A DNA stretch of 64,000 nt from Alphaproteobacteria bacterium (GTDB lineage Bacteria > Pseudomonadota > Alphaproteobacteria > Caulobacterales > Hyphomonadaceae): the NCBI GenBank assembly GCA_018969425.1, contig JAGWYJ010000016.1, positions 1-64,000 of the forward strand, given 5' to 3'. The notes beneath the pieces are model-generated. The model did no database searches and was not told where the DNA came from. It saw only the letters and a program-made list of their open reading frames with translations. Position 1 is the first letter of the stretch, and each line of letters starts with the position of its first letter. A program made the translations under genes and the position numbers. Shown here one piece after another: positions 40,773 to 61,774 of this stretch.

Positions 40773-40855
40773 CGGGCGAAGCCCCTTCGATTACCGAACC
40801 TGGCGGAGATCGCGCCGCCGGCAGTTCAGGACGCGCCCCTTACCACTGAGCCGGC

Positions 40856-42271: not shown

Positions 42272-42345
42272 CACACACCTCGACTAAACACGCCCCCCAC
42301 GATCCACAGGATCAAGGCTATTTAAGGGAGAATCGAAGGTTATGC

Positions 42346-42360
42346 CTAAGCCTGTCTTAA
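42346..42360. promoter_or_regulatory. Candidate CtrA-binding site upstream of ftsZ
   Basis: CTAA, seven bases, TTAA (read as TTAA, seven bases, TTAG on the ftsZ strand) differs in one position from the CtrA consensus of two TTAA half-sites seven bases apart. It lies 75 bases before the ftsZ ATG, in a gap that should hold the ftsZ promoter. In Caulobacter, CtrA represses ftsZ. A one-mismatch site can occur by chance. Confidence 0.4.
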
Positions 42361-42374
42361 AGAGGCAGGATTTT

Positions 42375-43667: not shown

Positions 43668-43671
43668 GACC

Positions 43672-44556
43672 TCATGCCCCTCCCAGCTCGGAAGAAGAGG
43701 GGGCTCCCGGCAGAGGCCTCAGAGCAAACCGATCGGGATGACGCGCATCGATACGAGACACTGGAAGTTCCAGAATGCGGTTCTGAGCCTGGAGAAAATT
43801 AAGCGCCCTCAGAGCTTCGCCCATTCCATCATCCGCAGGAAGCGCCACATCCACGCCCTCTTCAAACCGGATATCCCATCGGCGCCCCCCGATCCGCTCC
43901 GCTCCATCGAGACGGATCGCCAACTCCGGATAATCGCCCAAAGCAGCCAGCAACGCCGGCGCGGCATGGTTGCCGTCTGCTCCGCTGATGCGGGGCAGAT
44001 GCAAATGATCATTCATGTCCGCCTGAACAAAGACCTCGCCATGCTGATCGATTACCTTCCACGTCTCCCCGTCGCGCCACAGAGCGACCGGCTCGCGTGT
44101 CTCAGCGATGATTGTGATTTGATCAGGCCACAATCGCTGGACGCTGACGCCGCCGACGGCGTCAAGTTCCTCGACACGGGCCTTTATGGTCAAAGGATCA
44201 GCGGCAAGCATGCTCTCGCCAGGCTCGAGCATTGCGGCGTCCCGGGCTCGCTGTTCAAGCAGCGGATCAAGACCGACCACGACAATCTTGTCGACCGTGA
44301 GCCCCGCGGACCTCATCACCGCATCCAGTCCCGAGCTCATGCGAACGCCAACGGACCCCAACGAGCCGCCAAGCCAGGCCGCAGCCGCGATGACTGCAGC
44401 CAGCCCGACGACCGACCCCAGCGCGTAGGCCCCTATTCTCTCCCGGAGACTTTGGGCTTCGTAAGGCGACGCCAGGGTCGAACGCGAAGATGGAAGTTCG
44501 TCGTCGAACTCCTCGTCATCTTCGACCTTTGGACGGGAACGTATCACCTTTGGCAT
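43672..44556 (-). CDS. ftsQ: Cell division protein FtsQ
   Basis: FtsQ connects early and late divisome proteins. It has a cytoplasmic tail with an acidic patch ([11 protein letters not shown]), one membrane span at about residues 41-62 ([20 protein letters not shown]), and a periplasmic POTRA domain ([20 protein letters not shown] and [20 protein letters not shown]). The FtsQ/DivIB region follows ([20 protein letters not shown]). The length of 294 fits alphaproteobacterial members. The start ATG (44554-44556) lies within the last codons of ddl, overlapping by 13 bases. Confidence 0.93.
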
Positions 44557-45452
44557 GAGGCGTCCTCGATCATCCAGCTGACCAGCGACGGATAGTCGAT
44601 CCCAAGATGCGCCGCCTGCTCGGGAATGAGAGAGGTAGGCGTCATGCCTGGCTGAGTATTGGTTTCGAGTATCACCAGTCGGTCCGCTTGTTCGTCATAT
44701 CTGAAATCTGATCGCGTCACGCCCCTGCAGCCGAGAGCCGTGTGCGCGCGGAGCGAAGCATCGAGCGCCGCGGCAGTGACCCGATCGGGCAGAGGTGCAG
44801 GCAACACGTGACGAGACCCTCCAGCATCATATTTTGCTTGGTAATCGTAATATTCCCTTAAAGTCGTGATCTCTGTCACAGCCATGGCTCGATCGCCCAT
44901 GACGCCCACAGTAAGCTCCCGACCAGGAATAAACGCCTCGACAAGCGCGCGTCGCCCGAAACTCCAGGTGCCGTCGGAAAGCTCCTTCGGGGGACGATTC
45001 GCACCTTTGGGAATGATCCTGACGCCAAAGCTCGAGCCTTCCGCTATCGGCTTGATGACATAAGGCGGCGCCATCACGTGTTCGCGCGCGATATCTGCGA
45101 GATCGAACACTCCGCCTTCGGCAATGTCGAGACCGTGCTGGGCGTAAATCGCGCGGGCCTTGTCCTTGTCCATGGCGAGGGCGGAGGCAAGCACGCCTGA
45201 ATGCGAGTAAGGAAGGCCGAGGATTTCAAGAAGCCCCTGGACGCAGCCATCCTCCCCCCAGGGCCCATGAAGCGCGTTCAGGACCACGTCGGGAGCGCAC
45301 GCGCGCAACCGCTCCGCAAGATCCCTATCCGCGTCGATTTCGATAACGTCATAACCCTGAGTGCGGGCGGCGGCCGCCATGCCTCGCCCAGAGGATAATG
45401 AGACGGGCCGTTCCGACGACCAGCCCCCGGCGATGACCGCGACCCGCTTCAT
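44544..45452 (-). CDS. ddl: D-alanine-D-alanine ligase
   Basis: Ddl makes the D-Ala-D-Ala dipeptide for peptidoglycan. [20 protein letters not shown] opens the fold and [20 protein letters not shown] is family signature 1. [16 protein letters not shown] is the ATP-grasp lysine region, and [20 protein letters not shown] the Mg/ATP and second-alanine site. Starting at the ATG at 45450-45452 (GAGG six bases upstream) gives 302 residues; the frame opens at a TTG four codons earlier. It is the first gene of the ddl-ftsQ-ftsA run after the interruption in the dcw cluster. Its expression must come from a promoter in the 140 bases shared with the divergent lipoprotein gene. Confidence 0.95.
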
Positions 45453-45593
45453 TGAGACCCTCAACGCTGTCGGAGATCGGCTCTCGACCTCTCTGACCCA
45501 AGTTCAATTTGGTCTGGATTACGATATGGTGAAAGATCAAAGCGCAGGCCGATGGTGTGTCTGTCATCGGGCGCCCGATGAAGCGAGGGGTCA

Positions 45594-46709
45594 ATGAGAC
45601 GATACTCAGGGATTTCAATATGCGTATTGATGGGCCTCGCCGTGCTCGCGGCGACGGCGTCAGGGTGCGCAACCGCACAGACGGTCCAAAGCGTTCCGAC
45701 TTCAAGAGCTGAAACTTTGACTGTGATGCGGATTGGAGACGGTCCGATCATCCACTCAGGCCTCCATCCCTCGATCGGCGAGAACATTCAGGGGCCCTCA
45801 TTGATCAGGGTGCCCGAGTGGGTTCCGGACCGGCTTGGGAACTATTACCTGTATTTTGCGGATCATAAGGGGGGCTTCATTCGTCTCGCCTACGCGAACG
45901 ATCTGCGTGGACCTTGGACTATTCATCCGCCAGGGGCGCTGCGCCTCAATCAAACGCCTTTTGCGCAAACGCCGCCGGCCTACACAGCCGCCGACCTCGA
46001 AGCTTTCCGCACTCAGATTAAATCGGGAGGCATGGATGAAGCGCTATTCAAGGACCTCGCGTTAGACGCCGCCACTCCGCACATCGCCTCGCCTGACGTC
46101 CATGTCGACACGAAGAACCGACGGATTGTGATGTATTATCACGGCCTCGAAACCTTCGGCCGTCAGACAACAAGGGTTGCTATCTCCAAGGACGGACAAA
46201 ACTTCGTCGCGATGGACGAAGAGCTGGGGCGGACGTATTGGCGGGCCTTCAACCATGATGGCATGACATACGCCATCGCCATGCCAGGGGTGTTTTACCG
46301 ATCAAACAACGCCCTTCAGGGGTTCGAACAGGGACCCACTCTTTTTAAGCCGTCGATGCGCCACGCAGCGGTGTTTAAGCGGGACAAAACGCTGTTTGTC
46401 GTCTGGACGGAGGTAGGCGGAGAGCCCCCTGAGCGGCTCCTTATCAGCAAAATCGACGTCAGCGGCCCGTGGGAAAGCTGGCGGGTAAGCGAAACGCGGG
46501 AGCTCCTCCGTCCTGAACGCCCCTGGGAAGGGGCTGATTTGCCGCTGACGCCGTCATTTCGGAGCACAGCTCCGGGCCGAGTGAACCAGCTCAGAGACCC
46601 TGCAATCTTTGAGGAAGACAACAAAGTTTACCTCCTCTACGCCATCGCCGGAGAGAGCGGAATCGCCATCGCAGAAATCAAGGGCCTCTCAGCCTCGGCG
46701 TCCCCCTAA
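45594..46709 (+). CDS. Lipoprotein with a glycoside hydrolase 43/68-like beta-propeller
   Basis: A lipoprotein signal ends AATASGC at Cys25. The mature 345 residues show a five-bladed propeller pattern: QGPSLIRVPEWVPDRLGNYY followed by LYFADHKGGFIRLAYANDLR, HIASPDVHVDTKNRRIVMYY followed by HG, VAISKDGQNFVAMDEELG, and LRDPAIFEEDNKVYLLYAIA. Blades beginning with Pro-Asp or Asp-Pro are typical of GH43 and related families, but I do not see all three catalytic carboxylates convincingly. It may be a carbohydrate-active enzyme or a binding protein. GAGGGG just before the ATG supports the start. It is divergent from ddl and 22 bases ahead of a HAD gene. Confidence 0.6.
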   Translation: MRRYSGISICVLMGLAVLAATASGCATAQTVQSVPTSRAETLTVMRIGDGPIIHSGLHPSIGENIQGPSLIRVPEWVPDRLGNYYLYFADHKGGFIRLAYANDLRGPWTIHPPGALRLNQTPFAQTPPAYTAADLEAFRTQIKSGGMDEALFKDLALDAATPHIASPDVHVDTKNRRIVMYYHGLETFGRQTTRVAISKDGQNFVAMDEELGRTYWRAFNHDGMTYAIAMPGVFYRSNNALQGFEQGPTLFKPSMRHAAVFKRDKTLFVVWTEVGGEPPERLLISKIDVSGPWESWRVSETRELLRPERPWEGADLPLTPSFRSTAPGRVNQLRDPAIFEEDNKVYLLYAIAGESGIAIAEIKGLSASASP

Positions 46710-46731
46710 GACGAGAGAAGCAAGACAACAG

Positions 46732-47442
46732 ATGCCCGTTTCACTGATTGGGATCGATGCTGACGACACCCTATGGCACAACGAAACCGTCTTCAGGATG
46801 ACCCACCAGCGCTTCAACGAGCTCCTCGGAGAATTCGCTTCTCCCGAAGACATAGAACATACGCTCAATCAAACCGAGCAGCGCAACATCGCGGTCTATG
46901 GATACGGCGCAAAGGGTTTCACGCTGTCGATGATAGAAACAGCGCTCGAAATCAGCGAAGGCCGCGTGTCCGGCGGCGTGATGCGTGAAATCATGGCTGC
47001 GGGCAAGGACATGATGCGCCACCCTGTCACCCCCTTGCCCGGAGTCGATGCGGCGCTGACAGAATTGGCGCAGCGCGGCAAGCTGATCCTCATCACCAAG
47101 GGGGATCTGTTTCACCAGGAAAGCAAGCTGGCGGCCTCAGGTCTTGGAAGTCGGTTTTCCGGGGTCGAGATCGTGAGCGAAAAGACATCCGACATCTATC
47201 GGAGGATCTTTCACCGTCATGGGGGAGCGCCTGACAAATCTCTCATGGCCGGCAATTCGATGAGATCAGATGTTCTGCCCATGCTTGAGGCGGGAGGCTA
47301 CGCAGCCTATGTGCCCTACCCCCTTATTTGGTCGCATGAGGCCGCCGATCCGCCTGAGAACCATCCCCGCTTTCGGGAACTCCCCACCCTTTCGGATCTC
47401 TGCGATTGGGTTGATGAAATCCAGAATGGCGGAAAATCCTGA
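46732..47442 (+). CDS. HAD family hydrolase
   Basis: The 236-residue protein has HAD motif I in LIGIDADDTLWHNETVFRMT (Asp nucleophile and Asp+2), a helical cap of about 80 residues, motif II in LILITKGD, a motif III lysine in SEKTSDIYRRIF, and motif IV in LMAGNSMRSDVLPMLEAGG. This is the layout of small phosphatases of the YjjG or phosphoglycolate-phosphatase kind. The substrate is unknown. I use the ATG at 46732, where conservation starts; the open frame runs further upstream into the previous gene but has no homology pattern. It follows the propeller lipoprotein closely and probably shares its transcript. Confidence 0.85.
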   Translation: MPVSLIGIDADDTLWHNETVFRMTHQRFNELLGEFASPEDIEHTLNQTEQRNIAVYGYGAKGFTLSMIETALEISEGRVSGGVMREIMAAGKDMMRHPVTPLPGVDAALTELAQRGKLILITKGDLFHQESKLAASGLGSRFSGVEIVSEKTSDIYRRIFHRHGGAPDKSLMAGNSMRSDVLPMLEAGGYAAYVPYPLIWSHEAADPPENHPRFRELPTLSDLCDWVDEIQNGGKS

Positions 47443-47475
47443 TCGGGTTTTCTTCGATCACCCTCAGAACGCAGA

Positions 47476-47892
47476 TCAATCTGACAGGCCAGGGTCTCGC
47501 GGACCATCTGGACGGGTCCCGACGAACAGAGCGCATCCCCCGAGAAACAGTCCGGCGAGTGATTTCACAAAAACATGGGAAGGCGAAAAAAGAACAAGAA
47601 GGAATGAGAACGCCATCGCTCCGATAGCCAGAAACTTCACATGGCGAGGGATCGCGCCGTGCTCTCGCCAGGAGAGAATGGAACGTCCCAACTTCGGATG
47701 GGCGACCAGCCACGCCTCAAATCTCGGCGACGATCGCGCGAAGCAGGCGGCGGCGAGTATGAGGAACACCGTCCCAGGCATAAGAGGCAGGATATAGCCT
47801 GCAACACCAAGACCAAGACAGACGACGCCCCCCGCAAAATAGGCGATCCTCAGGGCTTTCGAGGATGAAAAAGGAAGGGGAGGCTCTGTCAT
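47476..47892 (-). CDS. YbaN/DUF454 family small membrane protein
   Basis: The 138 residues contain two to four hydrophobic segments (IAYFAGGVVCLGLGVAGYIL and AIGAMAFSFLLVLFSPSHVF). The DUF454 signature runs LPLMPGTVFLILAAACFARS followed by SPRFEAWLVAHPKLGRSI and WREHGAIPRHVKFLA. YbaN-like proteins sit in the inner membrane and have no firm function. GGGGAG about 10 bases upstream fits the ATG at 47890-47892. It stands alone on the minus strand between plus-strand genes. Confidence 0.88.
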   Translation of the reverse strand: MTEPPLPFSSSKALRIAYFAGGVVCLGLGVAGYILPLMPGTVFLILAAACFARSSPRFEAWLVAHPKLGRSILSWREHGAIPRHVKFLAIGAMAFSFLLVLFSPSHVFVKSLAGLFLGGCALFVGTRPDGPRDPGLSD

Positions 47893-48120: not shown

Positions 48121-49536
48121 ATGACATTCCACTTTACCAAACGGAGCACGCGCCTTTGGCTAGCCGCGGTATCGGCTATTGCACTTATTTCGTGCAGCCC
48201 CCAGGCGAACGAACCGGCGACAGAAGTCGCCACCGTAACCACTCCGGCTCATGATCAGGCCTGGCCCGCGGCGGCGGCGGCGGACCCGTCAGCCCTGGGA
48301 CTGGACCCACAGGGCCTCGCGGCTCTCGATACGGCGATGGCGGCATCCGTGGCGAACCAGGACGTGGCCGGAATGGTGACCTTGCTGGCGCGCAAGGGAG
48401 AGGTGGCTCAGTTCAAGGCCTACGGCATACAGGCAGGTGAGACCCCGATGACGGAACACTCTCTGTTCCGAATCTATTCGATGTCCAAGCCGATCACAGG
48501 CGTCGCTCTGATGCAGCTTTACGAACAGGGTAAGTGGACACTGGATGATCCCGTGACCCTCCATGCGCCTGAGCTCGCTGGCCTGAAACTCATGACGGGT
48601 GTCGACTCCAAGGGACAGGCTATCCTCGCCAACCCGTCGCGACCGCCGACCATGCGCGAGATAATGACCCATACGGCCGGCTTCGGATACGGACTGTCAG
48701 GCAACGATCCTGTCAACACGGCCTTCAGGGATCAGGCTGTACTCGGCTCAGCCAACCTTGATGAAATGATGACGAAGATAGCCGGTATTCCGCTTCTCTT
48801 CGAACCGGGACAGCGTTGGTCTTACTCGGTCTCGGTGGATATTCAGGGCTATCTGGTTCAGAAGCTGTCCGGACAGAAGTTCGGCGACTATCTGAAAGAG
48901 CACGTGTTCACCCCCCTTGGCATGAACGACACGGCCTTTTTTGTAGCGGAAGAAAATCGCGGTCGGTTCTCAGACGTTTATAGCTGGGACAAGGACGCGG
49001 GAAAGCTTGTAGCCAATCCGGAGCGGCCGGATCGTCCCAGCTTCTTTGATCCCAACCGGCTTGAATCGGGCGGTGGCGGACTTGTGTCCTCCACTCACGA
49101 CTATGCCCGTTTCTGTCAAATGATGCTCAATCGCGGCGAGCTTGGCGGCAATCGAGTCCTCAAGGCGGAAACCGTGGACCTGATGACACAGAATCACATT
49201 GGCGACCTGCGTCTTTACAGCGACGGAACGAACGCCAATCCGGGACTTCCGGGCGTCGGATTCGGACTTGATTACGCCGTATACACAGACCCGGCGGCCG
49301 CCAACGCTCCTTATGGTCAGGGCGCTTATTACTGGGGGGGCGCAGCAGGCACCTGGTTCTGGATCGATCCGAAAAACGAGTTGTTCTTCATTGGCATGAT
49401 CCAGAGGATGGGAGCTTCACGTCCCGACAGCATGAACCTCAGGGACGAATCGGCGCGGCTCGTATACGCGGCCCTTACGCCGGGGGCGGCCCCCGCGTCC
49501 GCCGCGGGCGCTGGCGGCGGCGCCGGCGGACAATAA
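48121..49536 (+). CDS. Serine hydrolase lipoprotein (class C beta-lactamase/esterase fold), first copy
   Basis: A lipoprotein signal (ALISC, Cys25) precedes a penicillin-binding-like hydrolase. The nucleophile motif SMSK is at 120-123. The second motif is the Tyr region RWSYSVSVDIQGYLVQKLSG, and GGGGLVSSTHDYARFCQMML follows. The third Lys/His-Thr-Gly box is less clear. Enzymes of this group act as esterases, peptidases or beta-lactamases, so drug resistance should not be assumed. The tail is a short Gly/Ala run (AAPASAAGAGGGAGGQ). GGGGAAGAG lies upstream of the ATG. A close paralogue follows. Confidence 0.87.
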   Translation: MTFHFTKRSTRLWLAAVSAIALISCSPQANEPATEVATVTTPAHDQAWPAAAAADPSALGLDPQGLAALDTAMAASVANQDVAGMVTLLARKGEVAQFKAYGIQAGETPMTEHSLFRIYSMSKPITGVALMQLYEQGKWTLDDPVTLHAPELAGLKLMTGVDSKGQAILANPSRPPTMREIMTHTAGFGYGLSGNDPVNTAFRDQAVLGSANLDEMMTKIAGIPLLFEPGQRWSYSVSVDIQGYLVQKLSGQKFGDYLKEHVFTPLGMNDTAFFVAEENRGRFSDVYSWDKDAGKLVANPERPDRPSFFDPNRLESGGGGLVSSTHDYARFCQMMLNRGELGGNRVLKAETVDLMTQNHIGDLRLYSDGTNANPGLPGVGFGLDYAVYTDPAAANAPYGQGAYYWGGAAGTWFWIDPKNELFFIGMIQRMGASRPDSMNLRDESARLVYAALTPGAAPASAAGAGGGAGGQ

Positions 49537-49544
49537 GTGCAAAA

Positions 49545-49572
49545 CGCCCGGGAAGCATGATCTTCCCGGGCG
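49545..49572. terminator. Hairpin between the two serine hydrolase genes
   Basis: CGCCCGGGAAG (49545-49555) pairs with CTTCCCGGGCG (49562-49572), an 11-base-pair stem with a 6-base loop, nine bases after the first gene's stop. The plus strand lacks a U-run, so read-through into the second gene is possible. Confidence 0.5.
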
Positions 49573-49683
49573 CATGCCGCCTGCTCCCATCCCTGTCATT
49601 GCCCTTCTTTCAATCTGAAACGCGGCCATGCCGGGCCGAACGCCTGCCGCAGTTCAGTAAGCAAACCCTCCACGGAGAGTCTC

Positions 49684-51003
49684 ATGTCATCACACTCATT
49701 ATCGCGAGGACCGATTTCTCATCGCATCTGGCCTGTTATGGCTATCGCATCCTTCGCGAGCGTTCTGTCCGCCTGCGTTTCGATCCCAACGCTTAACACC
49801 GCTTCGACCGCCTGGCCGACACGAGCGGACGTTGTGGCCAATCAGTCGGACTTCACAGCCGAGGGCCTCGCGGCGCTCGATGCGCGGATGAAGGAAGCAG
49901 TCGACAAGAAACAGATCGCCGGACTCGAGTATGCACTGTTCAAAAATGGACGGCTTGCGGCTTTCAATATTCATGGAAACCAGTCATTCGGCGGACCCCC
50001 AATGACTGAAGACACGATTTTCCGGATCAGATCGATGTCGAAACCGGTAACTGGAGTTGCATTGATGCAGCTCTATGACCAGGGCAAATGGTCTCTCGAC
50101 GATCCGATTACAAAGTTCGTACCGGAGTTTCAAAACCTGAAAGTCTACACTGAGGACAAGGATAAAAACACTGTCCTGGTGAATGTCTCAAGGCCGGCGA
50201 CTATGCGCGAATTGTTCACGCATACCGCCGGATTTGGCTACGGTCTTAGCGCCTCGACGGCCGTCGATAGGATGTTCATCGCTGACCATCCCATGGGAAA
50301 GAAGGACCTTAAGGCCCTGATCGACAGAGTCGCAGAAATTCCTCTCCTCGCACAGCCTGGAGAAAGATGGTCCTACTCAATCGGCATAGACGTTCAGGGT
50401 GCGATCGTCGAACGACTGTCAGGTCAATCCTTCGGATCCTATCTGAAGGCCAACATCTTTGATCCTCTGGGCATGAAGGACACAACCTTCCTGCTCGCTG
50501 AAAAGGATCGCCCGAGACTTGCCACGGTGTATCAGCGGAACAACGAAACCGGCGAGATGGCGGTATTCCCCGACGCGCCGGACCGTGACTTCTTCAAGGC
50601 TGACCATGCGGAATCCGGAGGTGGGGGCCTCGCCTCCACCACACACGACTATGCTCGTTTCGTTCAGATGCTGATCAATGACGGATCACTCGACGGCGCG
50701 CGCATTCTGAAGCCGGAAACAGTCAAACTGATGATGACCAATCAGATCGGCGACATGCGCGCCATGGGAGGAGGCGGCTGGGGACTCGGCGGCGCCTTGA
50801 CCACTGCGCCGCCGAGCGAGAAGGCGCCGCAACCTACAGGAACCTTCTCCTGGTTCGGCATTGATGGAAGCTGGTTCTGGGTCGATCCCGTCAACGACAT
50901 CGGCTTTGTCGGAATGATTCAGCGGCGCGGCGGCGCGGGCCCCGGCTCAGTCGATCTCAGAGGCGAAAGCCCTCAATTGGTCTACAAGGCGCTCACGAAA
51001 TAA
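49684..51003 (+). CDS. Serine hydrolase lipoprotein (class C beta-lactamase/esterase fold), second copy
   Basis: This is a paralogue of the preceding gene. A lipoprotein signal ends LSAC (Cys31). RSMSKPVTGVALMQLYDQGK matches the first copy almost residue for residue, with the SxxK serine at 117. HTAGFGYGLSAS, RWSYSIGIDVQGAIVERLSG and GGGGLASTTHDYARFVQMLI are likewise shared. TFSWFGIDGSWFWVDPVNDI near the end occupies the place of the third motif. The N-terminal 50 residues differ, so the copies may meet different partners or compartments. GGAGAG four bases before the ATG supports the start. The pair looks like a local duplication followed by divergence. Confidence 0.87.
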   Translation: MSSHSLSRGPISHRIWPVMAIASFASVLSACVSIPTLNTASTAWPTRADVVANQSDFTAEGLAALDARMKEAVDKKQIAGLEYALFKNGRLAAFNIHGNQSFGGPPMTEDTIFRIRSMSKPVTGVALMQLYDQGKWSLDDPITKFVPEFQNLKVYTEDKDKNTVLVNVSRPATMRELFTHTAGFGYGLSASTAVDRMFIADHPMGKKDLKALIDRVAEIPLLAQPGERWSYSIGIDVQGAIVERLSGQSFGSYLKANIFDPLGMKDTTFLLAEKDRPRLATVYQRNNETGEMAVFPDAPDRDFFKADHAESGGGGLASTTHDYARFVQMLINDGSLDGARILKPETVKLMMTNQIGDMRAMGGGGWGLGGALTTAPPSEKAPQPTGTFSWFGIDGSWFWVDPVNDIGFVGMIQRRGGAGPGSVDLRGESPQLVYKALTK

Positions 51004-51051: not shown

Positions 51052-51075
51052 TTGCCGTCTGCGATCAGACGCGCC

Positions 51076-51990
51076 TTAGCGGCGACCAATACGACGGATC
51101 TCCCAACGAAGATCGACGCCGCTTGTCGCCTTCACTGCGGCCCGCACATCCTCGCCAAGACCCTCAATATCAGCCGCAGTCGCGTCACCCGTATTGATAA
51201 GAAAATTGCAATGTTGCTCGCTCACCTGAGCCCCGCCGCGCCGCGCGCCCCGCATTCCGGCCTCATCCACTAGCTTCCAGGCGCTTCGGGCATCGGGAGC
51301 CCCCGGCGGATCGGGATTGGCGAAGGTGGATCCCCCGGTCTTTTCGCGGATTGGCTGAGCAGCCTCACGCCGCGACGAAATCTCATTCATTCGAGCCTCG
51401 ATCGCGGCAGGATCATCTGGCTGTCCCCGAAAAACAGCCTGGATCCAGATGATCCCCGTGGGATCGCTGTGGCGATAGCGAAATCCGAAATCAGACGCCG
51501 CGTAACGGCGTACCTCTCCCGTTCTATCTACGCCCCATGCGGCTTCCAGAACATCCTTGGTCTCTCGTCCATAGCAGCCGGCGTTCATTGTCAGAGCGCC
51601 TCCTATGGTCCCAGGAATGCCGACGAGAAATTCGAGCCCTGATAGTCCTGCCTTGGCTGCTGCGCGGGCAACTGTCGCATCCAGCGCCCCGGAGCCGGCG
51701 ACAACCCTGTCTCCATCGATGACGACGGCTCCGAATTCTCGACCCGCAAGTCGGACCACGACCCCAGGAACTCCGCCATCTCGCACGATCAGGTTCGAGC
51801 CGACACCGATCGGATAGACAGGAACATCTGACGGAAGCGCACGCAAAAAACTGGCGAGATCCTCTACATCTGCGGGGATGAAAAGAACTTCGGCCTCACC
51901 GCCGACCCGGAACCAGGTGAACGGCGCCAGCCTTTCTCCGGGGAGCAGGCGACCTCGAACAGGCGGCAGTGACGAAATCAGGGACTCCAT
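51076..51990 (-). CDS. murB: UDP-N-acetylenolpyruvoylglucosamine reductase
   Basis: MurB reduces the enolpyruvyl group to make UDP-N-acetylmuramate, using FAD and [25 protein letters not shown] and [20 protein letters not shown] are FAD contacts. [20 protein letters not shown] is the type I/II core, [10 protein letters not shown] holds the catalytic serine, and [16 protein letters not shown] the C-terminal glutamate region. The length of 304 is normal for alphaproteobacteria. The ATG is at 51988-51990. In the standard cluster murB directly follows murC; here two other genes lie between, and murB is separated from ddl by the plus-strand interruption. Confidence 0.95.
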
Positions 51991-52031
51991 GCTCGCCTTC
52001 CAGTCTGCCGCCCAACCAATTCCAGGCGGAT

Positions 52032-52823
52032 CTAATGGCAGACCCGCTCGCCGCCGGTGTCGAGATGAAGGTGATCGGCGTGATCGGCGTTGTATTCCGG
52101 GCTCAGCGTTACGTCAAAAACCTGACACGCCCCCTGACGAACATCGCGGAGAAACTCTCCCTCGGGACCGGAACTGAAGTAATGATCCCGAACATTAATC
52201 CTTCGTCCATCGACAAGCGTGAACCCCGATATATCCGCGGCGCGACCGAAGGCATGTTCGCTGAGTGGGCCGCTACCCCCGACCCGACGACACGAATATC
52301 CCCCGAAGGCCTCGATTGACGCCAGAGAGGACCCGAAATGCCGCTCCGCGGCGGGCGCTACGATCTGACGCTCCCACAGATGAAGCCGAGCAGCCGTGGC
52401 GCATGTCATGATGAGCGGCTCAGGGGCGCGATAAGTGACAAGCCCCTCCTCCAGCGCCACAGCATCGTCGAAACCGCAACCGTTCTCTTCCGTCTGCGCC
52501 GATACCCGTTGAAAACCGACGCCCGCGAACTCGAGGGCCTGGTAGCAAGCCGACAAATCCCTCGACAATTGAGCATAGGCCTGACGGTCGCCAAGTGTCT
52601 CAGGTGCGGCGAGATCAAGCCCGCGGAGCAGAAGCTGCATGCGTTCCACAGTCAGCGTATTGCGAAACGCAGGCTCGTTCGCCGCACCCGACAAGGAACG
52701 GCCTGAAACAGACGCCCCCTGATCCTGGCTCGCGCCAGGCTCCCGGGAACACCCGCCCAGACAGGCGAACAGACCCGCCAGAACGGCAACAAAAACGACC
52801 CCGGAACCTTTCATGAGAGACAT
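52032..52823 (-). CDS. Extensin-like lipoprotein with LAS metallopeptidase motifs
   Basis: A lipoprotein signal ends CLGGC (Cys25). The C-terminal half is the extensin-like_C domain: [27 protein letters not shown] and [14 protein letters not shown], and near the end [11 protein letters not shown]. His190-x6-Asp197 and the later His251-x-His253 have the spacing of zinc ligands in LAS peptidases (VanY, VanX, MepA), which cut peptidoglycan peptides. The domain family has no proven function, so peptidase activity is an inference. Four or more cysteines suggest disulfides in the periplasm. It lies 41 bases before murB on the same strand within the dcw cluster. The ATG at 52823 is taken; one at 52814 is possible. 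Confidence 0.75.
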
Positions 52824-52933: not shown

Positions 52934-53992
52934 TCACTCGCTCTCAGGGGTGAGAGCCAGGTCTTTGCCTGCACGCTCCTGGATACGGGCCCCCGCCAGA
53001 ATGCCGTAAAGGCCGTAATTGCCTTCGTGACAGGCATACTCGTAGACCTGTTCCCGGACCCCGTTGAGGGTCATCTCCCCTCTCCAGGACTGCGAATAGA
53101 CTTCCGGATCATCAACCTGGAATTCATAGAGAATTTCAGCGTCCCCAACGCGAGTAAATCGCTCCGTCAGCTTACCCGTGTCCGAGATGAAAACCGGAGA
53201 GGTCTGCTGCCGATGGAAGTTGCGGGTCTCCACCACGAGAGTGTCGCCCTCATACCACCCAATCGAATCGCCCAGCCAGGGTTCAATGGCGGTGGGGCGA
53301 GTTCGGGTCTTGGTGAGAGGAATGATCCTCGCGTCATGCACCATCTCGATCAGGATCATCACATGATCAGGCGTCTGCACGAACTGATAATGATTGTTGT
53401 AAAGAACATTCAGCATCACCGGGCCGCCAGTACCTCCAAACCCGATCAGACATCTTTCTCCGGTCGAGCGGGACTCTGGTCCCTCGTAAGACCCGCCCGC
53501 GCCTCCCTTGGGCGGTTCAGCCCGCGGCCGCCAGGCCGCCATCTTCCGTCGACCGGCTTGGGTCATGGGGATCCGTCCATCGGCCGGCTCTACAATCCAA
53601 GACGACCTCAGCTCTCCCTTGACCTTGGCGATCCGGGATCCTGGATCGACCCACACCGCGTTATAGTTGCCCACTGGCGGCAAAGGCTTACCCTTCTCAG
53701 GAGCTCCCTCAGCCTGATCGGTCGGCTTAAGTTCGGCGGCGGTGCGGACATTGTTATAGTCTGAAGCCTCGATCTTACGGGCTTCTTCGGCGCTCAACAC
53801 TAGGGATGACACATCCTGGGGACGCGTGAGCTTGGTGATCGAAGAATTGGTCCAGACACCCTGCAAGTCCGGAGCGCCCCAGCTTGTTTTCGGAACGGCA
53901 TAGGGAGCGACAGTCTGGGCAAGAGATGCAGGCGCTTGGGCGGCGACAAAAGCGAAAGCCCACAACGACAGTCCGAACGCGACCCGTTTCAT
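52934..53992 (-). CDS. Exported protein of an uncharacterised family
   Basis: I recognise the pattern as a widespread secreted family without an assigned role, not a named one. A signal peptide covers about residues 1-25 (cleaved near ASLA). SWGAPDLQGVWTNSSITKL starts the mature part. TPDHVMILIEMVHDARIIPL, WLGDSIGWYEGDTLVVETRN followed by FH, ERFTRVGDAEILYEFQVDDP and VYEYACHEGNYGLYGILAGA form the conserved C-terminal half, probably a beta-barrel or lipocalin-like fold. GGGGAG just before the ATG at 53992 favours that start over an ATG four codons earlier. It sits between murC and the extensin-like gene. Confidence 0.6.
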   Translation of the reverse strand: MKRVAFGLSLWAFAFVAAQAPASLAQTVAPYAVPKTSWGAPDLQGVWTNSSITKLTRPQDVSSLVLSAEEARKIEASDYNNVRTAAELKPTDQAEGAPEKGKPLPPVGNYNAVWVDPGSRIAKVKGELRSSWIVEPADGRIPMTQAGRRKMAAWRPRAEPPKGGAGGSYEGPESRSTGERCLIGFGGTGGPVMLNVLYNNHYQFVQTPDHVMILIEMVHDARIIPLTKTRTRPTAIEPWLGDSIGWYEGDTLVVETRNFHRQQTSPVFISDTGKLTERFTRVGDAEILYEFQVDDPEVYSQSWRGEMTLNGVREQVYEYACHEGNYGLYGILAGARIQERAGKDLALTPESE

Positions 53993-54115
53993 ATCTCTCC
54001 CCATAGTCTTTTATATCGGCTTTATTGTGAGTGTTCTGCCGCGTCGAATGCCGGCGCACAAGTCCCACTGAACGAAGAGCCCGAGCATCCAGGAACTGAG
54101 GGATCAGAGACCCAG

Positions 54116-55528
54116 TCAGGCCCCTGCCGCAAGCCGTCGGGCAAGAGCTTGGGCATGGGTCGTAATGTCCCCAGCGCCGAGACAGACTACGAGATCTCCC
54201 GGGTGCAATCCGTCTCTCAGAGTATCCGGCAGATCCTCAAGGGCCGTAAGGGTCCGCACGGATCTGTGACCATGCTCCATCAGCCCCTTGGCGAGAGACT
54301 GAGCCGACACGCCGTCAATAGGCCCCTCTCCGGCCGCATAAACGGGAGCCACCAGAACATGATCGGCGTCATTGAAGCAGGTGCAGAAATCCTCGAATAA
54401 ATCCCGCAGCCGGGTAAACCGGTGGGGTTGGACTACAGCAAACACCCGCCCCTTGCCCTGAACGTCCCGAGCAGCGCGGAGCACAGCTTTAATCTCAACG
54501 GGATGATGACCGTAATCATCAATAATGCGAACTCCGTTCCATTCGCCGACAGTCGTAAATCGGCGCTTCACTCCGCCGAACTTGGACAATGCCGAACGCA
54601 CCTGCTCTTCATCTCCCCCCAGCTCTCTCGCCACAGCGATAGCAGCCAGAGAATTCTGAACATTGTGCTGCCCAGCCATCGGCAGCTTGAGCTCGCGCCA
54701 GCACATCTCCTCACAACTGCCGCGCGGACGGACAACCAGATCAAAGATGGAACCACCCGCCTCGGGACGAACATTGACGGCCCGAACATCCGCCTGCGGA
54801 TTAAAGCCGTACGTGACCCTCCTTCGATCAGGAATGCGGCTCGCCAGCGCCTGCACTTCAGGATGATCGGCGCAAAGAACAGCGAACCCGTAAAAAGGCA
54901 GGTTTTCGACAAAGGTATCAAAGCCTCTCCGAAGGGCCTCCATGGATCCATAGTGATCCATGTGTTCGGGATCGATATTCGTCACAACGGCGACTGTTGG
55001 CCTGAGGCGAGTGAATGTCCCGTCGCTCTCGTCAGCTTCAACGACAATCCACTCTCCGGCTCCGAGTTTAGCGTTTGATCCATAGGCATTGATCACGCCA
55101 CCGTTGATGACAGTCGGATCAAGGCCGACCCCATCCAGCAGGGCCGCAACCATAGACGTGGTGGTCGTCTTGCCGTGGGTCCCTGCGACCGCAACGGTCC
55201 ATTTGAGACGAATAAGCTCGGCGAGCATGTCCGCACGCCGGACCACAGGGATAGCCCGAGCCCGAGCGGCATCGACCTCGGGATTTCCGCTCTTGATAGC
55301 AGAAGACACGACGAGGGCGCCGACACCCTCTATATTGTCAGCCTGATGACCAATGAAAATCTTAGCGCCCATAGACGCCAGACGGGCGGCATTCGGATTC
55401 TCCCTGAGATCAGAACCGGAAACTTCGTAACCGAGATTGATCATGACCTCGGCGATCCCAGACATCCCTATGCCGCCGATTCCGACAAAATGAACGGGGC
55501 CGACGTCAAATGGAATTGATCTACGCAT
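54116..55528 (-). CDS. murC: UDP-N-acetylmuramate-L-alanine ligase
   Basis: MurC adds L-alanine to UDP-MurNAc. [20 protein letters not shown] is the N-terminal nucleotide fold and [20 protein letters not shown] the ATP loop. [20 protein letters not shown] and [12 protein letters not shown] are the central Mur ligase signatures, and [20 protein letters not shown] is the C-terminal domain. Starting at the ATG at 55526-55528 (AAGGA upstream) gives 470 residues. This overlaps the end of murG by eight bases; a longer open frame further into murG is not needed. Confidence 0.96.
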
Positions 55529-56651
55529 GATCCTTGCCCGCCATTTCAACAGCCTGCTCGGCGAGATCTGCAAGATCCCTTGCAGCGTTGAGCCGCCCCA
55601 TCGATAACGCCGCCCGGGCGCGCGCCTGAAGAACGCCAGCGTTCGATAGCCGTTCAGCCAGAATGGACCGGAGGGATGCGGGTGTAAACTTGGCTTCGGT
55701 CAGAATATCGGCAGCAGCCCCCTCGAGCATTTCTTCAGCATTAGCTGTCTGATGATCGTCCATCGCAATAGCAAGAGGCACCAGGATCGAAGGCCGACCA
55801 ACGATCGCAAGTTCGGTCACCGTCGAGGCGCCGGCCCGAGCAATCACAAGATGCGCGCGCGCCAGACGTTCATGCATGTCACGGAAGAAAGATGAAATGT
55901 CGCAACGAACACCCGCCTGCCGATAAATCTCCTCCACTTTAGCTATCTGCTCGTCTCTGACCTGCTGCACCACGATCAGCCGCCTGCGGAGCGTCTCCGT
56001 GAGACCTTCGATCGCCCTAGGAACAACCTCGCCGAAAAGCCGCGCCCCCTGGCTCCCTCCGGTGACAAGAAGATTGATATCTCCATCGTCAGTGAGGTCA
56101 GGGTAAGGCAAATCACGAACCGCGCGAATGGGAGCCCTGACAGGGTTCCCTACAACCCGCTTACGCAATCTGACGGACGCTGGCAGGCGATCCAGCCGCT
56201 CGAACCCGCACGCGACAAAGGCAGCCGAAGGTGCGAAAAGGCGATTGACACGACCCAGAACCGAATTCTGCTCATGAATGATGATCGGCGTCTTGAGGTC
56301 AACAGCGGCGGCCAGAGACGGATAGGACGGATAACCGCCGAAACCAGCCACAAGGTCGGGTTTCGAGGTCGCAAATCGCTTCTTGGCTGTCTGAGTTCCC
56401 GCCCGCAGTTTCATAAGCGCCCCTGGCAGTCGATGAGGGGCTTTGAGCGAGAAAGTGGCCGCCGACACTTCCTCAATCCAGTCAGCTGGAAATGTCTGAG
56501 CATAGGCTCTGCCGCGGGAATCCGTGATGAGAGCGGTGGACCATCCCCGACTGCGCATCTCCTCAGCGAAGGCCTGGGCAGGAAACATATGTCCCCCCGT
56601 ACCGCCTGCAGCGATCACAACGAGGGGCCGCCGTGCAACACTGTCCGCCAT
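55521..56651 (-). CDS. murG: Lipid II synthase (MurNAc-lipid I GlcNAc transferase)
   Basis: MurG transfers GlcNAc to lipid I on the inner face of the membrane. [20 protein letters not shown] is the Gly-rich loop, [20 protein letters not shown] the membrane/acceptor region, and [11 protein letters not shown] with [20 protein letters not shown] the C-terminal UDP-GlcNAc site. The length of 376 is usual. The ATG at 56649-56651 overlaps the ftsW stop by one base (TGATG), with GAGGCC upstream. Confidence 0.96.
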
Positions 56652-57790
56652 CAGGAAGGCCTCAGAACCGAAATGAGCGTATCAGGCCGTCGACGGGTCA
56701 GCGCCAGAGCAAAACCCAGGGTAAGAGCCGTTCCCAGCAATGAGGAGCCCCCCGAAGACACCAGAGGCAGCGTCATGCCCTTGGGCGGCATGAGACTGAG
56801 ATTGACCGACATGTTGATCACAGCTTGCAGGCCGAAAAGAGCAAATAGCCCGACCCCTGCCGCTCTCTCATAAAGATCGGGATTTCGCGAGGCCATCAGA
56901 ATGCCTCTGATGCTGATGAAGGCGAAGCAGATGGCCAGTCCCGCGCAGGCGACGAGTCCGAACTCCTCTCCAGCGACGGCGAAAATGAAATCGGTATGAG
57001 CATCCGGGAGCGCAGCCTTTACATCTCCCTCCCCCGGCCCCACTCCGAACAGACCTCCGTGTTGAATGGCTTCGCGCGCCTTGTCGATTTGATACGTATC
57101 GTACTCAGTCGGATTGATGAAGCTATCAACACGGCGCCGAACATGCGGAAGCAGAAGGTATAAGCCGGATCCCATCGCGCCGCCGCCGATCAGAAAACCG
57201 AGCGCCCACTTCCATGGCAATCCAAGAACGAAAAAAACTATAAGGAATGCGCCAGTCAATAGAACCGCCTGTCCGACGTCGGGCTGAAGAAGCAGAAGGC
57301 CAACAGTCACCGCGTAAAAAGCAAATGCGCTCATGGCGAGAGGACCCTTCGGGTAAAGGCCCCGAAGCGCAAGCAGCCAGGCGGATATCACGATAAGAGC
57401 AGGCTTGATCATCTCGGAGGGTTGAAAAGTCGAGCCTCCGATTCTGATCCAGCGCTGAGCTCCCTTAGCCTCGTGACCCGCAAGAAGAACAGCAGTCATG
57501 AGACCGAAAGAAACCAGAAAAATGAGAACCGCCAGCCTCCGGACCCAGACGGGAGACAACAAGGACAGAGACAGCATCACAACAACAGCCGCAAATGCAA
57601 ACACAGCCTGTCGGTATACGAAGTGATAAAGGTCCGTCTGTCCGATACGTCGAGCCGCTTCAGGTCCTGCAGCAAGAGAGAGCACTAATCCCAGACAGAG
57701 CAAGGCAAACGCCGTCGCGATCATTCCCTTGTCCACGGTTCGCCACCACTCAGCGACCGGCGAAGTGTCAGATCGTCGAAACACCTGCAT
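56651..57790 (-). CDS. ftsW: Septal peptidoglycan polymerase FtsW (SEDS family)
   Basis: FtsW polymerises glycan strands at the septum together with FtsI. About ten membrane helices fill 379 residues. SEDS blocks include WIRIGGSTFQPSEMIKPALI, LLLQPDVGQAVLLTGAFLIV, FGVGPGEGDVKAALPDAHTD followed by FIFAVAGEEFG, and GMTLPLVSSGGSSLLGTALT. The conserved aspartate in LLQPDVGQ is the catalytic residue of the family. The ATG is at 57788-57790, four bases after the murD stop. Confidence 0.96.
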   Translation of the reverse strand: MQVFRRSDTSPVAEWWRTVDKGMIATAFALLCLGLVLSLAAGPEAARRIGQTDLYHFVYRQAVFAFAAVVVMLSLSLLSPVWVRRLAVLIFLVSFGLMTAVLLAGHEAKGAQRWIRIGGSTFQPSEMIKPALIVISAWLLALRGLYPKGPLAMSAFAFYAVTVGLLLLQPDVGQAVLLTGAFLIVFFVLGLPWKWALGFLIGGGAMGSGLYLLLPHVRRRVDSFINPTEYDTYQIDKAREAIQHGGLFGVGPGEGDVKAALPDAHTDFIFAVAGEEFGLVACAGLAICFAFISIRGILMASRNPDLYERAAGVGLFALFGLQAVINMSVNLSLMPPKGMTLPLVSSGGSSLLGTALTLGFALALTRRRPDTLISVLRPS

Positions 57791-57794
57791 GATG

Positions 57795-59213
57795 TCAGGC
57801 CGTCTCTTTCAATGCATGATTTCGAGATAGCTGTAGGGTCAGCGTTCTGAACATCTCACCCCGATGCTCGAAGTCACGAAACTGATCGAAACTGGCGCAC
57901 GCTGGAGAAAACAGAACGACCGGAGATGGGTCGCCGGCAGCCCGGGCATCCATGAACGCGGCATCGATGGCGACGTCCAGCTGCCGGCACTTAACGGCGT
58001 CGAGCTTGCCCGATAGCGTCCGCGCAAAGGCTTCAGAGGACTCACCGATAAGATAAGCCTTTCGAACCGACCCAAAGAGCGGCTCAAGGTCGTCGATCCC
58101 CTCCTCCTTCGGCCGGCCGCCGACGATCCAGTAAGCGCCAGGATAAGCACGCAGCGCCTGCTCAGCCGCCTGACTATTGGTCGCTTTGGAATCATTGATG
58201 AACCGGACGCCATCGACCTCGGCGATCATCTCCAGGCGATGAGGGAGACCGGGATACGACATGAGGCCAGCCATGATATCCGCGGCCTCAAGTCCCAGCG
58301 CCCGGCAGGCGGCGTAGGCTGCGGCGGCGTTCTGGTGATTGTGACGACCCGGCAGGCCGGGGGCGTTTCGAATATCCTCCAGGTCGAGTGCGCGTCCGCC
58401 CGAAGAATCCATCAGGAAGCCGTCAAGAACAGATACGCCGCGTCCCAGCCCGAACTCGCTGGAAACAGGCAGAACACGTCTGCCGCCTTCAGCGGAGAGT
58501 TGAGTGCAGATCACCTGAGTTCGGAGATCGTCGACCCCGAGTATGGCGGTGTCGCCTAAGCCCTGATTGCGAAAGATTCTGCGCTTGGCCTGAACGTATC
58601 CGTCCATACCCCCATGCCGACCCAGATGATCAGGCGATATATTGAGCAGAACCGCGACATCGCACTTGAGTGTCTCGACAAGCTCAAGCTGGTAGCTGGA
58701 AAGCTCGAGAACATAGATCGCTCCCGCGTGCAGACGCTCCAGGTCCAAAACGCCGATCCCGATGTTTCCGCCGACGCGAACATCTTTCCCGGCCGACTTC
58801 AGGATATGGCCAATCAGAGCCGTCGTTGTGGACTTACCGTTCGTCCCGGTCACACCGACGATCCGCGGCCGCTCATGCACAGCGAGACCATTCACCGCCT
58901 TTGCGAACAGCTCCATGTCCCCGATTACGGGAACGCCCATCATCTGCGCCATTCGGACAAGACGATGAGGCTCAGGAAAGCGATGCGGGATACCCGGCGA
59001 CAAGACAAGCGCCGCAAATGTTTGCCAGTCGCGACGATTGAGATCGACAACCTGAACGCCCGCGTCCTCGGCAAGCTTGCGCGAGGCTTCATTGTCATCC
59101 CACGCAAGAACCCGCGCACCTCCGGCCGCCAGTGCACGAGCAGCAGAGATGCCGGATCGGCCGAGACCGAATACCGCCACATCCTTGCCGTCAAATGCAT
59201 GAACCGGAATCAC
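57795..59213 (-). CDS. murD: UDP-N-acetylmuramoylalanine-D-glutamate ligase
   Basis: MurD adds D-glutamate. VAVFGLGRSGISAARALAAG is the uracil-binding fold and IVGVTGTNGKSTTTALIGHI the ATP loop. VLELSSYQLE and LLNISPDHLGRHGG are the Mur ligase signatures, with FINDSKATNSQAAEQALRAY in the C-terminal domain. The frame opens with GTG at 59213, seven bases after the mraY stop and preceded by GGCGG. No ATG fits without cutting into the conserved N-terminus, so GTG is the probable start. The length of 472 is normal. Confidence 0.95.
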   Translation of the reverse strand: MIPVHAFDGKDVAVFGLGRSGISAARALAAGGARVLAWDDNEASRKLAEDAGVQVVDLNRRDWQTFAALVLSPGIPHRFPEPHRLVRMAQMMGVPVIGDMELFAKAVNGLAVHERPRIVGVTGTNGKSTTTALIGHILKSAGKDVRVGGNIGIGVLDLERLHAGAIYVLELSSYQLELVETLKCDVAVLLNISPDHLGRHGGMDGYVQAKRRIFRNQGLGDTAILGVDDLRTQVICTQLSAEGGRRVLPVSSEFGLGRGVSVLDGFLMDSSGGRALDLEDIRNAPGLPGRHNHQNAAAAYAACRALGLEAADIMAGLMSYPGLPHRLEMIAEVDGVRFINDSKATNSQAAEQALRAYPGAYWIVGGRPKEEGIDDLEPLFGSVRKAYLIGESSEAFARTLSGKLDAVKCRQLDVAIDAAFMDARAAGDPSPVVLFSPACASFDQFRDFEHRGEMFRTLTLQLSRNHALKETA

Positions 59214-59220
59214 GACCCGC

Positions 59221-60354
59221 CTACCTCAGCTTGAGCGTTGCAAGGCCGACGAGGGCGAGCAGGAAAGCGATAATCCAGAAGCGGATGACAACCGTCGACT
59301 CAGACCATCCAAGTTTCTCGAAATGATGGTGGATAGGAGCCATAAGAAAGACCCGCTTACCGGTCATCTTAAACGACGCAACCTGAATGATGACCGACAA
59401 GGCCTCAAGAAGGAAAAGACCCCCGACGATAGCGAGGACAAGTTCATGCTTAACGCAGACGGCCATCGCTCCCAGGCCCCCGCCGAGGGCAAGCGAGCCC
59501 GTATCCCCCATGAACACCTTGGCAGGGGGAGCATTGTACCAGAGGAACCCTAAACCTCCCCCGACAAACGAGCCCATCACAACAGCGAGTTCCGCGGTTC
59601 CAGGAGTCGCGGTCAGAAGAAGATAATTCGCCAGGCGAGGCGTTCCGCAAGCGTACGCGATGAACCCGAAAGTGGCCCCTGCGATCATGACAGGCCCAAT
59701 GGCCAGACCATCCAGACCGTCAGTGAAATTCACCGCATTCCCGGCCCCGACGATGACGAATGCGCCGAACGCAATGAATCCTACCAGAGTGAGGTCGAGC
59801 AGGAAGTCCTTCAGGAATGGCAGGGCGAGGGACTGTTCGAACTTGTCAGGCGGCATCGATGCAGCCAGCCCGCCCTCAACAGCCTCCCTGGCCGCCAGCG
59901 GAGCATACTGGGTGATCCAGTAAACAGCGGCGCCGGCGATCACGAACTCCATCACCAGACGCGCCTTGCCTGACAATCCGGCAGTGCCGCGCTTGGTGAC
60001 CTTCTGGTAATCGTCAATGAACCCGACAGCGCCAAACATCAGCGTAACCAGAAACACAATCCAGACATACTGGTTAGACAGATCGGCCCAAAGAAGAGTT
60101 CCAGCGGAGATGCCGAACAGGATGAGAAAGCCGCCCATCGTCGGCGTTCCCTTTTTCGACATGTGACTTGCAGGGCCATCCTCGCGGATAGGCTGCCCCT
60201 TTCCCTGCTTGCGACGAAGCCACGCGATCATCGGAGCCCCGAATATCAGCGAAAGAATAAGAGCAGTCGCCAGCGCCAATCCCGTTCGGAACGTGATGTA
60301 ACTGAAAAGATTCAGATCATCCCCGGCATAAGGAGCGAGAAACTCATAAAGCAT
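59221..60354 (-). CDS. mraY: Phospho-MurNAc-pentapeptide transferase
   Basis: MraY couples the UDP-MurNAc-pentapeptide to undecaprenyl phosphate, forming lipid I. Ten membrane helices are visible. [20 protein letters not shown] followed by [25 protein letters not shown] (the Asp-Asp catalytic motif) and [20 protein letters not shown] are the hallmark loops. [16 protein letters not shown] contains the histidine triplet. GGGAGG seven bases before the ATG at 60354 sets the start, which overlaps the murF stop by 11 bases. The 378 residues, with the conserved first helix, are slightly longer than the E. coli enzyme. Confidence 0.96.
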
Positions 60355-61774
60355 CTGCAATCCTCCCGGATGAAGCGTCTTGATCGACGCCTTTGTCTAT
60401 CGCACGAAGGATCGTGGCGACTTTTCCCATGCCGGATGCATTCGAGCCTTTGATCAAGACCACATCCCCCGAAAGCAACAGGGAATTCATCGTCGCCGCC
60501 GCTTCTTCGGGCCCGTGTGTCATCCTGACCTCAATCGAAGGAGCCTCCCGAATCAGTCGAGCGGCCAGATGCCTCATCTCTCCGCCAGACAGGATCACGA
60601 CACTCACGCCTGCGGCGATAAGCGGTTCTGCAAGACCGGAATGCCACTCAGCGCTCTCCTCACCGAGCTCACGCATTTCGCCCAGTACGGCGACCTTGCG
60701 GCCAGGGCGACGCGCCAGCCCCGAAAAGGCAGCACGCATTGATTGAGGGTTGGCGTTATAGCTGTCGTCCACGAGGGTGATGGGGTCGCCTGTCGCCAGC
60801 TGTAGAGTCTCCGCAGTGCCTCGACCTGGCGGCGGCGAGTAGCCGCTCAAAGCCTGCGCAGCGCTGCGGGCGTCGATACCGGAGGCGACAGCCGCAAGAA
60901 CAGCAAGAGCGGCGTTGGCGGCCCAATGCTCTCCCACGGCGAGCAATTCAGTTTCAACAACGGCCCCCAGGACTTCAAGACGGATCAGGGACCTGGCGCC
61001 GTCAGAATCATAATCTCGGACGCCAGCGCTGTGAACGCCCGGATCGCCGCCGAAGGTTAAAACCTCTGCAGACGGCTGAAGATCGAAAGCTCGTCGCCTG
61101 AGAGTTTCAAAGAACGAATCCCGTTCAGGAAGAATGACCACTCCGTCGGGCTCAAGTCCGGCGAAGATATCGGACTTCTCGCCAGCGACTGCATCAACGC
61201 TACCCAAGCCCTCCAGATGAGCAGGGGCGATACAGGTGATCATCGCAATGTGTGGACGAACGAGCCGCGAGCGCGGAGCGATCTCGCCTGGCGTGCTCAT
61301 GCCGATTTCAAAGATCGCGCGTTGGGTGTCGCGGGGCATCCTTGCGAGGGTAAGAGGAACGCCCCAGTGATTGTTAAATGACTTGTCGGACCAGTGCGAA
61401 CGTCCATGCGCCCGAAAGATCCGGGCAATCATTTCCTTCACGCTGGTTTTGCCGACAGAGCCGGTTACGGCCGCGCACACGCCCGACATTCGCCGGCGCG
61501 AAGCGGAGCCCAGTTGGACCAGCGCCTCCAGCACGTCTCCTGAGATAAGGCCGGGACGCCCCACATCCCGGGACACCAGACAGGCTGCAGCGCCCGCAGA
61601 GAAGGCCGTGTCAACGAAATCATGCCCATCCCGAATGTCCCTAAGCGCCACGAAGAGATCGCCAGGAGACAAAGTTCGGGTGTCTATGGACACCCCGGAA
61701 ACACGCCACTCTCCGATTCGACGGCCCGAAACAGCCGCCTCGACTTCGTGAGCAGTCCATAAATCTTCTGTCAT
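60344..61774 (-). CDS. murF: UDP-MurNAc-tripeptide D-alanyl-D-alanine ligase
   Basis: MurF adds the D-Ala-D-Ala made by Ddl. [20 protein letters not shown] is the N-terminal domain, [20 protein letters not shown] the ATP loop, and [20 protein letters not shown] the substrate region. [15 protein letters not shown] and [20 protein letters not shown] lead into the C-terminal domain. The ATG at 61772-61774 overlaps the murE stop by one base (TGATG). The length of 476 is normal. Confidence 0.96.

Follow-up and report, generated by a model that had tools for sequence, protein, structure and literature searches.

The window, a 64,000 nucleotide stretch of contig JAGWYJ010000016.1 (GenBank assembly GCA_018969425.1) from a member of the Hyphomonadaceae, carries an extensin-like gene in its dcw cluster, and the product was examined here as a predicted zinc peptidase of the LAS type. 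The gene (52032..52823, minus strand) encodes 263 amino acids (aa) from an ATG, and the plus-strand frame over the same interval is interrupted by stops. The gene and the features of its product are:

52032..52823, minus strand: Extensin-like_C gene, located between murC/HypX and murB, whose product is predicted to be a zinc peptidase of the LAS type (open reading frame, PF06904 match, predicted LAS fold)
52749..52823, minus strand: N-terminal signal with lipobox-like L-G-G-C25, a predicted export signal (read from the translation)
52038..52550, minus strand: Extensin-like_C domain, residues 92-262 (Pfam profile match)
52233..52256, minus strand: H190-x6-D197, predicted first and second zinc ligands (translation, invariance, end-points of the fragment model)
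52065..52082, minus strand: H248-xx-H251-x-H253, predicted catalytic His (H251) and third zinc ligand (H253) (invariance, MepA spacing, end-points)
52287..52289, minus strand: R179, invariant Arg ahead of H-x6-D and putative transition-state residue (alignment; compare R294 of VldE in an excerpt of PMC11667670)

The product matched Extensin-like_C (PF06904) with an E-value of 1e-50 (172.8 bits against a curated cut-off of 25.4), covering positions 2-175 of the 176-position profile. A Pfam scan at E <= 10 otherwise returned only a sub-threshold LSU match, with no M74, VanY or M15_2, and an NCBIfam scan gave no match at E <= 0.001. We take PF06904 to be already grouped by Pfam with M74, VanY and M15_2 in a peptidase clan.

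Conserved residues, predicted fold and putative zinc site

An earlier note on this DNA had picked out H-x6-D at residues 190-197 and H-x-H at 251-253, and both were recovered in the translation as HAFGRAAD and HLH. Residues C93, C116, C141, C178, R179, S188, H190, D197, C233, H248, H251, H253 and C262 were invariant in 35/35 rows of an alignment of homologues from the order (window included), and in all 40 rows of the larger alignment (16 dcw-linked copies and 24 others) of which the first is a subset with near-duplicates dropped. The 40 rows, which were also used for the tree described below, were taken from 50 PF06904 matches in 61 relatives; the ten dropped were both matches of G012, a fragment in G014, the G032 match (one in-frame stop), the single matches of G051, G055 and G059, and the second copies of G037, G041 and G057. 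In the wider class, 18 of 25 further loci (besides L001 and L025) were inspected, leaving out L097, L105, L107, L108, L109, L111 and L115, and S-x-H-x6-D was found in 18/18 and HxxHxH in 17/18. Given the strength of the family match and the invariant residues, the motif is, on the sequence, far from a chance occurrence, and a site this strictly conserved speaks for catalysis. As all six cysteines are invariant in a domain that is probably exported, three disulfides are suggested. Compared with the 89%-identical orthologue in G002, the single pair examined, the gene had a ratio of nonsynonymous to synonymous substitution rates (dN/dS) of 0.09, similar to that of murB (0.066).

The product had been called a lipoprotein in the earlier note. 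The term fits the window copy (LGGC, C25) and G002 (LPGC), and possibly for G020 (SSC), but the N-termini of the remaining dcw-linked copies, inspected by eye and with no predictor, have a hydrophobic stretch without a clear closing lipobox. As a clear lipobox is confined to so few, a lipid anchor is not established as a common trait of the dcw-linked copies.

Residues 60-263 were modelled with AlphaFold2 from seven sequences and without templates (model residue n is protein residue n+59), and the best of five models, which spanned a mean pLDDT of 70.7-84.7, had a mean pLDDT of 84.7 and a pTM of 0.83. The top Foldseek match was the Zn DD-peptidase 1lbu (E 3.9e-3, probability 0.99), followed mostly by hedgehog domains, with VanXYg at rank 28. 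In the VIA structural comparison, LAS proteins accounted for all of the best 50 of the 191 chains reaching Z 2. These included hedgehog (Z 9.4, 109 residues, 2.7 A), MepA (Z 8.3, 135 residues, 3.8 A), 1lbu (Z 8.0, 120 residues, 3.4 A), VanX (Z 7.9, 125 residues, 3.3 A), LdcB (Z 7.8, 129 residues, 3.9 A) and Ply500 (Z 6.8), and below these, within the same 50, VanXY, LysB4, ChiX, VanY, VldE and a T5 enzyme, of which LysB4, ChiX and the T5 enzyme are presumed to be LAS proteins. A VIA Z under 8 may reflect a common arrangement of elements, but this is disfavoured here because the best 50 of 191 rows belong to one superfamily. The check proposed in the earlier note was structure prediction and superposition on VanY or MepA; the prediction returned an LAS fold with both enzymes among the best 50 rows, and the window protein is, by prediction rather than from a solved structure, an LAS-fold protein. 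As it matched none of the M74, VanY and M15_2 profiles, it looks LAS yet lies outside those families.

The putative zinc site was mapped from the first and last aligned residues of the structural matches, assuming a gapless final strand. The H253 end-point fell on residue 184 of VanX and 197 of 1lbu, both of which we take to be zinc ligands, and on 211 of MepA (1u10, 1tzp), the position of the final HxxHxH histidine in the E. coli protein. Among the rows for Sonic hedgehog (Shh), the end-point was 182-183 in 14 of 17, the zinc His being 183 in mouse numbering and presumably 182 in human numbering. It was also read as 183 in 1vhh and as 375 in VldE (9flj, 9flk), both zinc ligands according to excerpts of PMC4102407 and PMC11667670, respectively.

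A fragment model (residues 60-204, pLDDT 73.7) was built to anchor D197, whose end-point was 148 for 4c4m and 147 for another five Shh rows (6/6 within 147-148). The Shh zinc aspartate is 148 in mouse numbering and, we assume, 147 in human numbering. The best Z for the fragment was 4.3 (82 residues), and the top 11 of the 26 listed rows were all hedgehog, the next having Z 2.5; MepA and VanY were not among the 26. In the rows read, H253 and D197 fell on known zinc ligands or no more than two residues away, 2vo9 being the clear exception. Together, the models give good but indirect support for a single site.

Setting in the dcw cluster and in related genomes

The genes around the extensin-like gene are:

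51076..51990, minus strand: murB, directly downstream of the extensin-like gene (equivalog NF010480, 2.6e-114)
52934..54004, minus strand: HypX, flanked by murC and the extensin-like gene; its product is probably secreted and belongs to no family recognised by Pfam or NCBIfam
54116..55573, minus strand: murC, upstream in the dcw cluster (profile match)
55521..63833, minus strand: rest of the upstream dcw genes, namely a short ftsI-type transpeptidase open reading frame, murE, murF, mraY, murD, ftsW and murG
39885..45464, minus strand: downstream dcw genes ddl, ftsQ, ftsA, ftsZ and lpxC

On the minus strand the order is the ftsI-type frame, murE, murF, mraY, murD, ftsW, murG, murC, HypX, the extensin-like gene and murB. 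The extensin-like gene was confirmed to lie directly ahead of murB on the same strand, with 41 bp between its stop and the murB start. A scan of 50950-54300 found no promoter-like sites and four terminator-like sites where 3.0 were expected, which neither supports nor opposes co-transcription.

Among the 61 relatives, PF06904 was found in 41 and MurB_C in 60, and in 16 genomes the two shared a contig and were no more than 2 kb apart. By group, 14/15 members of the genus (window included) had the adjacency, as did 2/22 other genomes of the family (G020 and G023, one genome each of two other genera) and 0/24 genomes belonging to the order's other families. In G007, murC is followed by the extensin-like gene close to the end of a contig, and murB sits on a different one. 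The gap to the first possible murB start codon was 8-81 bp in 14 relatives. The earlier note had described the gene as inserted in the cluster and had proposed looking for it beside murB in related genomes; as some sister genera (L049, L052) have murC immediately next to murB, 'inserted' is apt, the insertion lying between murC and murB. Across the class, PF06904 was found in 21/142 genomes and, by eye, lay beside murB only in the window's own (1/21), while in the taxonomic family 96/105 genomes had some PF06904 copy.

In a maximum-likelihood tree of 56 rows, the 16 dcw-linked copies formed one group (support 100/99, recovered in all of 200 bootstrap trees) that sits beside unlinked copies of the taxonomic family. 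The dcw-linked clade has a single origin and spans three genera. Four genomes (G003, G004, G011 and G023) hold both dcw-linked and unlinked copies, indicating that the dcw copy is a paralogue and not a simple relocation. When 20 open reading frames flanking unlinked copies at 14 loci were scanned, 15 matched families (gyrase/topoisomerase IV A, Era-type, RecO, pantoate ligase, mechanosensitive channel, RcnB, enoyl-CoA hydratase and others) and five matched nothing. As the unlinked copies adjoin unrelated genes, the argument from position is drawn solely from the dcw clade. At one locus in each of two large genera of the taxonomic family (L009 in g5 and L026 in g4), an unlinked copy lies beside gyrase/topoisomerase IV A and beside Era-type/recO genes. 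The dcw-linked copy of G012 (C18, L044) is interrupted by a single in-frame stop, either real or an assembly error, its frame being open elsewhere, and a partial second PF06904 match is present on C57 of this genome. Extensin-like proteins of full length, with 39% identity to that of the window, were also found on contigs classed as viral (L068, L070).

HypX occupies the same place in 5/17 dcw-linked loci (G000, G002, G003, G013 and G020), and in G012 only a decayed C-terminal remnant is present; this distribution rules it out as a constant part of the system. It is strongly conserved (61-68% identity in G003, G013 and G020; dN/dS 0.04 against G002). The HypX scans gave no Pfam or NCBIfam match, and a scan of viral contigs found nothing.

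In the window, murB is separated from ddl-ftsQ-ftsA-ftsZ-lpxC by opposite-strand genes. Two tandem serine beta-lactamase-fold genes (PF00144) occupy 48121..51003 on the plus strand, and similar genes lie close to murB in G002, G008, G012, G013 and G014. Between these and ddl are overlapping plus-strand open reading frames (45594..47797), one matching a HAD-type hydrolase and two without a Pfam match.

The wall peptidases of the window genome were searched by profile for four families, giving M74 0, M15_2 0, VanY 1 and M23 6. With an assembly rated 99.98% complete, enzymes of the MepA and MepK types are probably truly missing from the genome.

Proposed function and its alternatives

The earlier note had suggested a hydrolase acting on peptidoglycan peptides, and this suggestion gains support from the predicted LAS fold, from the zinc-ligand end-points (2vo9, below, being an exception) and from the adjacency to murB. 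We consider it likely that the product is a periplasmic LAS zinc metallopeptidase acting on peptidoglycan peptides, an endopeptidase of the MepA type being likelier than a carboxypeptidase. The protein would be exported to the periplasm, where it is probably lipid-anchored at C25 in this genome, and its fold would be held by up to three disulfides. One zinc ion would be bound by H190, D197 and H253, and H251, with H248 nearby, would activate the zinc-bound water for attack on a peptide bond of the stem peptides, while R179 may steady the transition state. The target would most likely be a cross-link, cut by a D,D- or L,D-endopeptidase activity like that of MepA, with a terminal D-Ala the less likely option. 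Through joint expression with murC and murB, the opening of the wall would be linked to the supply of precursors.

In one alternative, an LAS metallopeptidase on peptidoglycan trims free stem ends as a D,D- or L,D-carboxypeptidase, like VanY, LdcB and 1lbu. The top Foldseek match is itself a Zn DD-peptidase, and 1lbu, VanX and LdcB are tied with MepA in the VIA comparison (Z 7.8-8.0). However, HxxHxH matches MepA, and DdpX has ExxH. Because MepA, 1lbu, VanX and LdcB tie within 1 Z, HxxHxH lends weak support to endopeptidase specificity, and fold scores cannot separate the two. An excerpt of PMC4087270 gives LdcB as lacking H-x-H, though 1lbu has it (excerpts of PMC3927764 and PMC4087270), and overall a carboxypeptidase appears unlikely.

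Somewhat less probable still is a protein with the LAS fold and zinc that acts on a protein or only binds, like hedgehog and the degenerate LytM factors, its place near murB being incidental. The unrelated flanks of the 14 unlinked loci, which show no consistent link to peptidoglycan, are in keeping with this, as is the rarity of the murB adjacency in the class-wide sample. However, no aligned homologue from the order has lost any of the predicted catalytic residues, in contrast to degenerate regulators, and the link to murB has been kept in a clade spanning three genera. A chance occurrence of the motif in some unrelated fold that serves another function is very improbable, since the weak profile similarity to known LAS families and the modest Foldseek E-values are set against a template-free model that gave only LAS proteins in its best 50 of 191 VIA rows and end-points that mostly fall on metal ligands.

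A number of results weigh against the peptidoglycan peptidase reading, among them the flanks just described. With the full model Foldseek gave no match at E <= 0.001, and from rank 30 (E 0.22) its matches were mostly unrelated kinases, MepA appearing at ranks 45-46 (E about 1). A phmmer search of the single sequence against the PDB returned no relatives, and a profile search against the PDB gave 12 weak matches (E 0.09-1.2) with no LAS chain among them. Profile-profile comparison with alignments of M74 (18 rows: 17/19 loci and E. coli MepA), M15_2 (17 rows: 16/25 loci and MepK) and VanY (5/13 loci) gave probabilities of 1-4%. The corresponding E-values (0.01-0.035) were better than those of four unrelated control families (0.23-0.87), and the best local matches, to the HxxHxH segment in M74 and the S-x-H...D segment in VanY, were not decisive. 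A PHROGs search gave one match (E 0.15), of unknown function. The end-points are not a residue-level superposition; three of the 17 Shh rows (3ho5, 6pjv, 3m1n) gave 184 and not 182-183, and the 2vo9 end-point was 137, off its zinc ligand H133. In one homologue from the class, L103, the middle His of HxxHxH is missing, and hedgehog indicates that an LAS site may be without proven activity.

A broader proposal is offered tentatively. The 'extensin-like' family may consist of unrecognised disulfide-stabilised periplasmic LAS peptidoglycan endopeptidases, of which, in one alphaproteobacterial clade, a paralogue was taken into the dcw operon between murC and murB; there it would link the cutting of cross-links to the making of precursors and would substitute for the MepA- and MepK-type enzymes missing from this genome. 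The label 'extensin-like' suggests a plant structural protein. Among the matches listed in open-licence PMC, no titles or abstracts assigned an activity to PF06904 proteins (print elsewhere may differ), and one search there listed mainly plant papers and two microbial ones. In excerpts, a bacterial genomics paper places 'extensin family protein' under unknown function (PMC10672838) and a fungal table merely names PF06904 (PMC11196620). As no activity for the family was found in the literature searchable here, the finding is of moderate interest. If the members are zinc peptidoglycan peptidases, a family present in 21/142 genomes of the class gains a testable function, and the dcw-linked clade would offer a natural example in which wall-cutting and wall-building enzymes are encoded together.

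Comparison with known enzymes

An excerpt of PMC4087270 defines LAS enzymes by a zinc motif, H-x(3-6)-D...H, and by an H-x-H motif whose first His is catalytic; the window protein has the former as H190-x6-D197...H253 and the latter as H251-x-H253. E. coli MepA (Peptidase_M74) has H113-x6-D120 and H206-xx-H209-x-H211, with internal spacings equal to those of the window protein, but its Asp and last His are separated by 91 residues, against 56 in the window protein; there was no M74 profile match, and profile-profile similarity to this family is weak. MepK has H133-x6-D140 without HxH, and DdpX, of the VanX type, has H98-x6-D105, the VanX types carrying ExxH, unlike the HxxHxH of the window protein. 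In LdcB, a Glu replaces the first His of HxH (excerpt of PMC4087270). The Streptomyces albus Zn DD-carboxypeptidase 1lbu shares the LAS fold and was the best Foldseek match of the model.

The S-x-H...D segment of the window protein aligns with that of the genome's own VanY-type protein, but the window protein matches neither the VanY nor the M15_2 profile, the only VanY match in the genome being another gene (G000:C21). The hedgehog N-terminal domain had the highest structural score, and its zinc ligands align with the window protein by end-points; it is an animal signalling protein with calcium sites and, according to an excerpt of PMC4102407, without proven peptidase activity. The pneumococcal L,D-endopeptidase VldE has H301/D308/H373-x-H375 with an Arg ahead of the motif (excerpt of PMC11667670), and H253 falls on H375 by end-point, but its Z against the window model was only 5.4 over 85 residues. 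VldE also has a multi-zinc loop. Compared with other Extensin-like_C proteins, the window protein showed no difference in the domain itself; its place beside murB is rare in the class (1/21 family-bearing genomes). The motif is, by sequence, closer to MepA (HxxHxH) than to VanY, and both the fold and the kind of enzyme are known; what is new is this member in a rare genomic setting.
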